DNA from: Cronobacter universalis NCTC 9529
GTDB lineage: Bacteria > Pseudomonadota > Gammaproteobacteria > Enterobacterales > Enterobacteriaceae
DNA length: 64,000 nt
Direction of reading: 5' to 3'
Assembly (NCBI RefSeq): GCF_001277175.1
Contig: NZ_CP012257.1
Span: 2,356,001-2,420,000, forward strand
A program made the position numbers and the translations under genes. Position 1 is the stretch's first letter. Every line of letters begins with the position of its first letter. Of this stretch, positions 16,759 through 19,645 are shown piece after piece. The notes beneath the pieces were generated by a model. That model saw only the letters and a program-made list of their open reading frames with translations. It made no database searches and was not told the origin of the DNA.

Positions 16759-18753
16759 ATGAAAGACGACCTGGAGAATAATCTGCTGTACCGCTACTGC
16801 GGCGCCACCAGCCCTTTCTGGCGCCTGCCGCTGGACAGCAACGCGTTGCAGCTTGCCGCCAGCGAAGAGGCCGTCACCAGCCATGTGGTGCCGCTGACGC
16901 CGGAACAGGCCGCGCAGATCCGTACCATGAGTGTGATTACCTCAAGCGTCACGCTGTCGTTATCGCTGTTTGGCGAACCGGTGCCGGTGCATCTGGTGGG
17001 GCGCAAAGTCTCCCGCAAAGAGTGGGCGGGCACGGCGTCGGCGTGGCACGACACCACCTCGGTGGCGCGCGATCTGGTGCAAGGACTCTCCTTCGCCGAA
17101 CAGGTGGTGTCTGAAGCCAATTCGGTCATCGTGATCCTCGATCGCCACGGCAATATCCAGCGCTTCAACCGGCTGAGCGAAGAATATACGGGCCTGAAAG
17201 AGCAGGAAGTGATCGGGCAGAATGTCTTTAAGCTGTTTATGACGCCCGCCGAAGCATCTGCCTCGCGGCGCAATATCACCGGTTTTTTCCGCAACGGCAG
17301 CTCCTATGAAGTCGAACGCTGGATCAAGACGCGCAAAGGCCAGCGGCTGTTTCTGTTTCGCAATAAGTTTGTCCACAGCGGCAGCGGGCGCAACGAAATT
17401 TTCCTGATTTGCTCCGGCACCGATATCACCGAGGAGCGCCGCGCGCAGGAGCGCCTGCGCGTGCTTGCCAATACCGACGCCATTACCGGCCTGCCCAACC
17501 GCAACGCTATCCATGAAATGATCAGCGACGCCATCGCTAAACGCGGCGACACGCAGGTGGGCATCGTTTATCTCGATCTCGATAATTTTAAAAAGGTTAA
17601 CGATGCCTACGGGCATATGTTTGGCGACCAGTTACTCCAGGCGGTGTCGCTCGCCATTCTGAGCTGTCTTGAGAAAGATCAGGTGCTGGCGCGCCTCGGC
17701 GGCGATGAGTTTATCGTGATGGCGACCGATACGTCGCAGGCGGCGCTGGAGGCGATGTCGTCGCGGATCATCTCCCGACTAAAGCATCCGTTTCGTATCG
17801 GGCTGATTGAAGTCTATACCGGTTGCTCACTCGGCATTGCCCTCGCGCCTCAGCATGGCGACGACCGCGAGAGCGTCATCCGCAACGCCGACACGGCGAT
17901 GTATAACGCCAAAGAGAATGGGCGCGGCAAATTCTGCGTCTTTTGTCCGGAGATGAACCAGCGGGTGTTTGAGTATCTCTGGCTTGATACCAACCTGCGC
18001 AAGGCGCTGGAGAAGAATCAGCTGGTGATTCACTATCAGCCGAAAATAGCGGCGGATGGCGTGGTGGATAGCCTGGAAGCGCTGGTGCGCTGGCAGTCGC
18101 CGGAGCGGGGGCTGATCCCGCCGCTCGATTTTATCTCTTATGCCGAAGAGTCCGGACTCATCGTGCCGCTCGGGCGCTGGGTGATGCTGGACGTGGTGCG
18201 CCAGGTGGCGAAGTGGCGCGATGCGGGCATACTGTTGCGGGTCGCGGTGAATGTGTCGGCGCGCCAGCTTGCCGACCAGACGCTGATAAGCGATCTGCGC
18301 CAGGCGCTTGCCGATATGCATTTTACTTGCAGCCCTATTGACGTAGAGATCACCGAAAGCTGCCTGATTGAAAACGCCGAGCTGGCGCTGTCGGTGATCA
18401 ACGAGTTCAGCGCGCTGGGCGCGCAGGTGCATCTGGACGATTTCGGCACCGGGTATTCATCCCTCTCGCAGCTGGCGCGTTTCCCGCTGGATGCCATTAA
18501 ACTCGATCAAAGCTTCGTGCGCGATATTCATAAGCAGCCGGTATCGCAGTCGCTCGTGCACGCCATCGTCGCGGTGGCGAAAGCGCTCGATTTGCAGGTG
18601 ATCGCTGAGGGCGTCGAAAGCGAAGAGGAAGATGCGTTTCTGACGCAAAACGGCGTCGATCAGCGCCAGGGGTTTCTGTTCGCCCGCCCGATGACCGCCA
18701 GCGATCTTGAACGCTGGTATCAACGCTATCGCGCCGGGAAACAGACGCCGTAA
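16759..18753 (+). CDS. rpfR: RpfR-type DSF receptor (YciR/PdeR): FI-PAS-GGDEF-EAL cyclic-di-GMP enzyme
   Basis: 664-residue cytoplasmic protein orthologous to E. coli YciR/Gmr/PdeR (661). Domains by eye: an N-terminal region of about 95 residues corresponding to the RpfF-interaction (FI) domain, a PAS domain (about 108-225) that in Cronobacter RpfR binds the DSF fatty acid, a GGDEF domain with intact GGDEF at 314-318, and an EAL domain with EAL at 440-442, DDFGTGYSS at 560-568 and AEGVE at 616-620. In known RpfR proteins DSF binding stimulates phosphodiesterase activity and lowers cyclic di-GMP. The frame is open from 16699, but the ATG at 16759 has a GGGAG Shine-Dalgarno sequence and aligns with the YciR start. 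The convergent neighbour rpfF, 22 bases away, makes the RpfR role very likely. Confidence 0.92.
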
Positions 18754-18763
18754 ACGGCGTCTG
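18742..18763. repeat. 22-bp hairpin enclosing the rpfR stop codon, between convergent rpfR and rpfF
   Basis: A perfect 9-bp inverted repeat CAGACGCCG/CGGCGTCTG (18742-18750 and 18755-18763) has the loop TAAA, whose first three bases are the rpfR stop codon. No T run follows on either strand. It may stabilise mRNA ends or act as a weak bidirectional terminator in the 22-base gap. Confidence 0.6.
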
Positions 18764-18775
18764 AGGTGATGGCCG

Positions 18776-19645
18776 TTAGCCTGCTTTACGCAGCGCCGCG
18801 GCGGTATGGCGGTTTTGTAGCTGGATCAGGCGCTCCATATAGCCCACATCTTTCGGCTCCAGGCTGAACGCTGCGTCCACCCAGTCTTCGGTGATTTCCA
18901 TCAGCTCGTTACGCGAGAGGCGCAGCACGCGCTGGCGCGCCCGGAGCATCGCCCTCACCCCGTTCAGCCGCGGTTTGAGGGTGTCGATAAACGTCCTCGT
19001 CGCCACAAACCCCTGGCCTGGCTCAAAGAGCTGATCCACCAGCCCCTGTGGCTGATACCACTCGGCGGTGTGAGATTCGCCCTGCCAGATAAGCTCCTCG
19101 GCAAGGCGCATCCCGGCGCGGCGCGTCACCAGCGAATAGCCGCCCATGCCGGGGAAGAGATTAAACGCAATCTCCGGGAACCCCATGCGGGCGTCGCGCT
19201 GGGCCAGAACAAAATGGTGCGCCAGCGCCGCTTCGAAACCGCCGCCGAGCGCGCTGCCTTCTACCATCGCAAGGCTAATGGCGCCGCAGTCAAATCCGCG
19301 CGAGGCGGCGTGTACGCAGTCCACGCAGGCGCGGGCATAGGCGCGCAGCGCTTCGCGTTTGCCGTTGCGAATGCAGTCGACGAAAAACTGTAAATCGCCG
19401 CCGGTGTTATACATGCCGGGGACCAGCGAGCCGGTGACCCAGAAATCCACCTCCAGCCTGGCCTCCTGCACCAGATAGCTGAGGTTCATGATCTCTTCGA
19501 TAAGAACATGGTTAAAACACGGACGCGGCTGGGCCCGCAGCATCATCCAGATAATGCGGCGTTCTTCCTCGTAAAACCCGGAAAGCTGAGTAAAACGCGC
19601 TGTATCGGTAAAGAGTTTGCAGGTCGATTGGTTGAATACTGACAT
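18776..19645 (-). CDS. rpfF: RpfF, DSF-family quorum-sensing signal synthase (crotonase fold)
   Basis: 289-residue crotonase-superfamily enzyme with the two catalytic glutamates of RpfF: Glu138 in GGGFEAAL and Glu158 in MGFPEIAF, spaced 20 residues as in Xanthomonas RpfF (Glu141/Glu161). RpfF acts as dehydratase and thioesterase on 3-hydroxyacyl-ACP, releasing a cis-2-unsaturated fatty acid (DSF/BDSF) that diffuses between cells. The ATG at 19645 follows a GAGG Shine-Dalgarno sequence. It converges on rpfR, whose FI domain should bind and restrain RpfF. E. coli has the receptor but no synthase. Ordinary fatty-acid enoyl-CoA hydratase is the alternative, but length, residues and neighbour favour RpfF. 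Confidence 0.93.
   Translation of the reverse strand: MSVFNQSTCKLFTDTARFTQLSGFYEEERRIIWMMLRAQPRPCFNHVLIEEIMNLSYLVQEARLEVDFWVTGSLVPGMYNTGGDLQFFVDCIRNGKREALRAYARACVDCVHAASRGFDCGAISLAMVEGSALGGGFEAALAHHFVLAQRDARMGFPEIAFNLFPGMGGYSLVTRRAGMRLAEELIWQGESHTAEWYQPQGLVDQLFEPGQGFVATRTFIDTLKPRLNGVRAMLRARQRVLRLSRNELMEITEDWVDAAFSLEPKDVGYMERLIQLQNRHTAAALRKAG

Follow-up and report, generated by a model that had tools for sequence, protein, structure and literature searches.

The diffusible signal factor (DSF) synthase RpfF and its receptor RpfR form a module that couples fatty-acid quorum sensing to cyclic di-GMP (c-di-GMP) in an opportunistic pathogen. The module was published in 2016 and 2019 for Cronobacter turicensis LMG 23827T, its function in PMC4698668 and its structure and convergent layout (Fig 1) in PMC6361424. 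In the latter, binding of the Burkholderia DSF (BDSF) to the PAS domain of RpfR activated the phosphodiesterase, and the RpfF-interaction (FI) domain of RpfR inhibited RpfF by binding near the substrate entrance. FI was proposed to be necessary to restrain RpfF, a promiscuous thioesterase (PMC6361424). The C. turicensis rpfR and rpfF mutants had 3.9-fold and 3.4-fold higher c-di-GMP, respectively, and a DSF biosensor responded to rpfF supplied on a plasmid (PMC4698668). Xanthomonas RpfF belongs to the same synthase superfamily, but it works with RpfC/RpfG, a hybrid sensor kinase as receptor together with an HD-GYP regulator (PMC4698668). E. coli has a homologue of the receptor, gmr, without a DSF synthase, which might respond to C12:0 (PMC6361424); under the names YciR and PdeR it is described as a trigger enzyme whose target is YdaM (PMC9684580). 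We analysed an rpfF/rpfR pair of Cronobacter universalis NCTC 9529 in a stretch of 64,000 nucleotides of its two-contig, 4.44-Mb genome (NZ_CP012257.1, positions 2,356,001 to 2,420,000; hereafter the window, from whose first letter coordinates are counted), and compared its receptor with those of relatives that do and do not carry the synthase.

The synthase and receptor of the window

We take the locus, with a probability of about 0.94, to be the RpfF/RpfR DSF quorum-sensing module of a Cronobacter. The receptor gene rpfR (16759..18753, + strand) was an open reading frame (ORF) from an ATG at 16759 to the end of a stop codon at 18753, encoding 664 amino acids with a complete FI-PAS-GGDEF-EAL architecture by Pfam domains (PAS, GGDEF and EAL) and PDB chain matches. 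Its score against NCBIfam NF007474 was 1257.6 bits (cut-off 782), and the gene is the orthologue of E. coli pdeR/yciR/gmr. The FI domain (residues 1-95; 16759..17043, +), a domain described in PMC6361424, matched the FI chain of PDB 6dga/6dgn with two differences (93/95). The PAS domain (residues 118-224 by the limits of PMC6361424; 17110..17430, +) matched 6dgg over 110 residues with three differences (107/110). Judging by names and lengths, we take 6dga and 6dgg to correspond to RpfRCt(1-95) and RpfRCt(PAS), two C. turicensis constructs of PMC6361424. The GGDEF domain (residues 237-390; 17467..17928, +; PF00990) and the EAL phosphodiesterase domain (residues 412-644; 17992..18690, +; PF00563) kept the motifs GGDEF at 314, EAL at 440 and DDFGTG at 560 intact.

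All five residues that contact C12:0 or BDSF in RpfR PAS (PMC6361424), S169, N172, Y183, R187 and N202, were present in the window receptor. In B. cenocepacia, c-di-GMP rose when the residues corresponding to S169, N172, R187 and N202 were replaced by alanine (PMC6361424). We dropped Tyr183 as a diagnostic residue, since B. cenocepacia RpfR has Phe at that position.

The synthase gene rpfF (18776..19645, - strand) encoded a 289-residue protein of crotonase fold with a Pfam ECH domain. It was convergent with rpfR, and 22 bases separated the two stop codons. Glutamates stood at positions 138 and 158, which we take to be the catalytic pair; both were kept in 135/135 RpfF-type sequences extracted. 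Among solved chains, RpfF scored 410.6 bits (6dgn RpfF) and 406.0 bits (5fus) against the two B. cenocepacia RpfF chains, 162.3 bits against 3m6m (Xanthomonas RpfF) and 162.8 bits against the RpfF-like chain 7zq7, and 54.3 bits at most against all the remaining ones. A 44-sequence tree placed it with the enteric and B. cenocepacia RpfFs, within a larger RpfF-like group that left out all nine other crotonases used; both groups had 100% support in the Shimodaira-Hasegawa-like approximate likelihood-ratio test (SH-aLRT). RpfF was found in 7/7 searched genomes of the genus, and the closest named relative among the matches listed (best 120 of 2934) was that of Cronobacter muytjensii, at 97% identity.

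The window pair resembled that of C. turicensis in genus, in the FI and PAS matches above and in its convergent layout, with few substitutions and no difference of substance found. The B. cenocepacia pair is also convergent, with 61% identity to the window for RpfF, 56% for RpfR and 54% for FI. Its receptor shared with the window the FI residues D26, S27, A29 and G72 and the pocket residues S, N, R and N. The pair, its coordinates and orientation, the intact motifs, the FI-like N terminus, the RpfF glutamates, the identification of the crotonase as RpfF and the prior knowledge of such modules (PMC4698668; PMC6361424) all stand as the preliminary description had them, and nothing in the module itself is new. 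Neither of the two outcomes that it named as refuting was seen: the tree put the crotonase with RpfF, and the N terminus nearly coincided in sequence with a solved FI chain.

The domains, key residues and convergent layout come from the sequence analysed here, and the biochemistry and phenotypes from the work of others in C. turicensis or B. cenocepacia; given the near-identity, the window strain would probably work likewise. RpfF would dehydrate 3-hydroxyacyl-acyl carrier protein and then hydrolyse the thioester to release a cis-2-unsaturated fatty acid of BDSF type. This signal would bind the PAS domain of RpfR and activate the EAL phosphodiesterase, lowering c-di-GMP, and the FI domain would bind RpfF at its substrate entrance and restrain synthesis.

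Several observations weigh against this identification or its output. The window RpfF reached 188.6 bits with the NCBIfam RpfF model NF053515, well below the cut-off of 550, and a promoter scan gave one candidate, with 1.1 expected from shuffles. In PMC4698668, wild-type C. turicensis gave no biosensor induction and only the plasmid-complemented strain did, so that signal output at native dose is unproven. Regarding the model, none of 185 genomes of the class (33 match at E <= 1e-35) and none of 14 controls reached the cut-off of NF053515; the model seems narrow, marking one RpfF subgroup and not DSF synthase activity, and will not name the RpfF branch of the window. The models above cut-off named the proteins 'crotonase/enoyl-CoA hydratase family protein' (RpfF) and 'cyclic di-GMP phosphodiesterase' (RpfR). 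The expectation that annotation would hide the pair therefore held for these generic names and for the RpfF model, but not for every source: among the best 120 of 2934 matches, close RpfF relatives were mostly labelled 'crotonase/enoyl-CoA hydratase family protein' by NCBI, and JGI and some NCBI records gave 'DSF synthase'.

That an ordinary catabolic enoyl-CoA hydratase chanced to adjoin a generic phosphodiesterase is very improbable, for although Pfam and the passing NCBIfam model yield just a generic crotonase label, solved non-RpfF crotonases score far below B. cenocepacia RpfF, the tree parts the window protein from nine of nine other crotonases, and an FI-bearing receptor was paired with the crotonase in 99/99 genomes.

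Distribution of rpfF and rpfR in the family

We searched a sample of 392 genomes of the family, endosymbiont-size genomes included. RpfF matched in 99 and RpfR in 140; an overlapping earlier sample gave 30/149 and 44/149, respectively. All 99 RpfF genomes carried a convergent RpfR on the same contig, with a median hit-to-hit gap of 28 bases and 91 within 120 bases, a pairing that is far beyond chance. The remaining 41/140 RpfR genomes had a receptor without RpfF (orphan receptors). A few paired genomes held broken copies: rpfF lay in two frames in G351 and had one internal TGA in G413, and rpfR had one internal TAG in G253.

Some arrangements departed from the usual pair. Atlantibacter subterranea NZ_VLPS01000001 (L096, L144) carried rpfF twice: one gene (83% identity to that of the window) stood at the rpfR locus, and the other (75%) lay unlinked at a distance of about 283 kb, where the stretch fetched contained no rpfR. 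G292 behaved alike. At L167 (4366-5882, G025) and other Buttiauxella-type loci, the spacing from rpfR to rpfF was about 1.5 kb, and the L167 insert held a LysR-like regulator and a carboxymuconolactone-decarboxylase-like ORF, named by eye from the translations. On the Methylobacterium oryzae plasmid NZ_CP090350.1 (L233, 2914-6195), a crotonase with 38% identity to RpfF overlapped an EAL-domain gene tail to tail, so that convergent synthase/phosphodiesterase pairs extend to Alphaproteobacteria. No FI domain was detected in this EAL protein, whose match to RpfR began at residue 222.

The gene order of the window was a fabI-type reductase, yciW, rnb, rpfR, rpfF and yciZ. The upstream neighbour rnb (RNase II; 14528..16462, +; Pfam RNB) has the same place in E. 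coli, and yciZ (19857..20039, +; Pfam PF23675), which adjoins pdeR in E. coli, formed the far edge of the rpfF slot. The order fabI-yciW-rnb-rpfR-[rpfF]-yciZ is common to enterics, and since E. coli runs fabI-yciW-rnb-pdeR-(ymiD)-yciZ-yciT, rpfF occupies the slot between rpfR and yciZ. E. coli PdeR was 74% identical to the window receptor over 657 residues with both GGDEF and EAL motifs intact. We rejected ymiD, an annotated 42-residue ORF at the rpfF position in E. coli, as an RpfF relic: by eye it had no likeness, and tblastn with RpfF gave no match there at E < 0.05.

The orphan loci, all 41 of the sample and one from E. coli, usually kept the same flanks. We found yciZ in 41/42 and rnb in 40/42, and the three misses occurred where a contig end truncated rpfR (L169, L176) or lay about 150 bases from its start (L163). 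The gap from the rpfR hit to the yciZ hit was 86-253 bases in 40/42; the exceptions were L170 (373 bases; a broken rpfR in a 49%-complete genome) and L169, without a yciZ hit. One orphan locus, L181 (4528-4653, G267), retained RpfF residues 18-39 and 271-288, in order and six bases apart, on the strand opposite to rpfR and immediately beyond it; searched as a single locus, they gave E values of 4e-4 and 8e-4. We read these remnants as a deletion scar of rpfF. The other 41 orphan loci showed no RpfF-like remnant at E < 0.05. Of 5426 E. coli genomes, 5367 had a match to the wider region, and in no case did it cover more than 80%. When the rpfR end, rpfF and the yciZ start served as query in a more sensitive search, 4888/5426 matched, again none over 80%, and among the ten matches listed the rpfR end alone matched.

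The catalytic domains gave a protein tree with poor support (65/148 inner branches open), and we therefore used a DNA tree, on which the paired/orphan label needed 10 state changes, at least seven of them on supported branches. It is unlikely that the enterics without rpfF, E. coli included, never had the gene and that Cronobacter and others gained it. The share of RpfR genomes without RpfF would suit such gains, as would the nesting of B. cenocepacia RpfF among the enteric RpfFs, which indicates inter-lineage transfer at some point. Against them stand both rpfF ends retained in L181, the number of state changes on the DNA tree, the presence of both states within five sample genera, and the pairing of all 29 of the most diverged sample RpfRs (<=69% identity to the window).

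Residue changes in receptors without a synthase

We aligned 151 distinct RpfR proteins, 113 paired and 38 orphan. The paired set came from 70/80 named loci and 43/55 sample loci (the 55 from 53/99 paired genomes), after repeats of the same sequence and loci with an incomplete rpfR had been dropped. The orphans came from the 42 loci above after removal of the duplicate L157 and of L169, L170 and L176, which were cut or broken. Every one of the 113 paired receptors kept S-N-Y-R-N at the five pocket positions, compared with 16/38 orphans. Changes at S169, N172 or R187 were found in 21/38 orphans, and one more had changed only at Y183. Six distinct substitutions at the tested positions (S169A; N172Y, K, H and D; R187L) occurred in orphans and none in the paired receptors, so that at least six separate changes took place regardless of the tree.

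A similar difference was seen in the FI domain. Residues 26, 27, 29 and 72, selected post hoc after the data had been seen, were D-S-A-G in 112/113 paired receptors compared with 2/38 orphans. Among the positions near-invariant in pairs, those changed in at least eight of 38 orphans numbered 5/18 in FI, 3/60 in PAS, 1/62 in GGDEF and 0/85 in EAL. Fisher's test gave P = 5e-5 for FI and P = 0.07 for PAS, each against GGDEF and EAL together, with positions and sequences that are not independent. FI residues W21, L30, L46, T61, S63, G81, W89 and G91 were kept in 38/38 orphans. By our own reading, G72 would lie in the loop between beta4 and beta5; PMC6361424 describes this loop as buried in the interface with RpfF. 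The receptor of L181, the locus with the deletion scar, was the sole orphan without a change at any of the nine pocket and FI positions, as expected if its rpfF was lost recently.

These data suggest that bacteria that lost rpfF also altered the signal-specific residues of the receptor. We think it somewhat better than an even chance that rpfF was repeatedly deleted from rnb-rpfR-rpfF-yciZ, that after each loss the orphans kept the phosphodiesterase and the FI fold, shed the residues for synthase and signal and came to use FI and PAS for other partners or ligands, and that BDSF is no longer recognised in the known manner by orphans such as E. coli PdeR. We set these odds slightly lower because of a control that averages over positions.

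The likeliest of the alternatives, though we consider it clearly less likely than not, is that orphan receptors differ merely by greater divergence or faster lineages and not through rpfF loss. The averaged control, which took all positions near-invariant in near pairs and compared change in far paired and orphan receptors, lends it some support. The two were equal in FI (far pairs 0.182, orphans 0.196) and the orphans were slightly lower in PAS (0.058 against 0.070). However, change in the orphans was much lower in GGDEF (0.033 vs 0.108 in far pairs) and EAL (0.030 vs 0.174), so that FI change exceeded EAL change in the orphans and not in the far pairs. The orphans thus stand out only relative to GGDEF and EAL, and the signal is residue-specific.

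On a fixed topology, FI and PAS branch lengths relative to EAL were modestly higher in orphans. The FI/EAL ratio was 4.23 on orphan-only branches (bootstrap 3.3-5.5) against 3.26 on paired branches of the core clade (2.8-3.8), PAS/EAL was 1.49 (1.1-1.9) against 1.01 (0.8-1.2), and GGDEF/EAL was 1.81 against 2.06. We rejected a general decay of FI in orphans, as the FI and PAS rates were modestly raised with overlapping intervals and the change was concentrated at particular residues; the same overlap suits the divergence account. Independent pairs on the DNA tree (seven on supported branches) gave a mean of 5.0 in the expected direction and 0.0 opposite for FI (median P 0.0625); the corresponding pocket values were 3.9 and 0.0 (median P 0.125). 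Neither sign test was significant at 0.05; all the pairs that differed ran the expected way, and they were too few to reach significance. An earlier comparison of 97 paired and 13 orphan receptors gave small P values, but it was based on identity to the window and took no account of phylogeny, and was not relied on.

Divergence alone fails to explain the orphan pattern, because diverged pairs retained the pocket and FI residues. The 33 most diverged paired receptors, with a median EAL identity to the window of 0.64 compared with 0.80 for the orphans, kept S-N-Y-R-N in 33/33 and D-S-A-G in 32/33. The six pocket substitutions confined to orphans also count against this alternative.

Neighbouring elements and meaning for the family

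The preliminary description placed the pair in an E. coli-like neighbourhood. The enteric order from fabI to yciZ is indeed common to both, with 49% identity between the YciW proteins, but the genome is Cronobacter-like and a glycyl-radical-enzyme cluster, which E. coli lacks at that place, precedes yciT. Between yciZ and yciT (20052-24188), this cluster comprised a fructose-6-phosphate aldolase (-), a glycyl-radical-enzyme activase (+) and a glycyl radical enzyme of PFL2-3 type (+), which reached no specific equivalog cut-off.

The rpfR stop codon lies at the centre of a perfect inverted repeat of 10 bp (18742..18763, no strand), a putative element that recurred in L046, of the same genus. 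We rejected it as a shared conserved terminator, as comparable repeats were found in just 16/113 paired loci, 0/38 orphan loci and 7/151 shuffles. A terminator pattern scan placed no site at the repeat and gave six terminator-like sites in the region in total, with 4.1 expected (standard deviation 1.8).

The addition beyond the published module is the comparison of paired and orphan receptors. Among the papers listed, our literature search showed no title or abstract opening on changes in orphan receptors; its coverage was thin for subscription journals, and priority is not claimed. The statement that E. coli keeps only the receptor was right in that no rpfF is present at the locus, and it needs a qualifier: the PdeR protein examined has R187L, and its FI residues 26/27/29/72 are S-S-V-E in place of D-S-A-G. 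Because of the Leu at Arg187, E. coli probably keeps the PdeR protein but not BDSF recognition as it is known here, and the tree tests agree in direction without being significant.

That the synthase never occurred without its receptor in the sample (99/99) is what one would expect if RpfF, as a promiscuous thioesterase, has to be restrained by FI. If the reading of repeated rpfF loss is true, the FI surface that faces RpfF would be marked by the residues changed only in orphans: A29 and G72, and to a lesser degree D26 and S27. The comparison also sharpens the question, raised in PMC6361424, of fatty-acid regulation of E. coli Gmr/PdeR, since the pocket examined here is without the ligand-contacting arginine.

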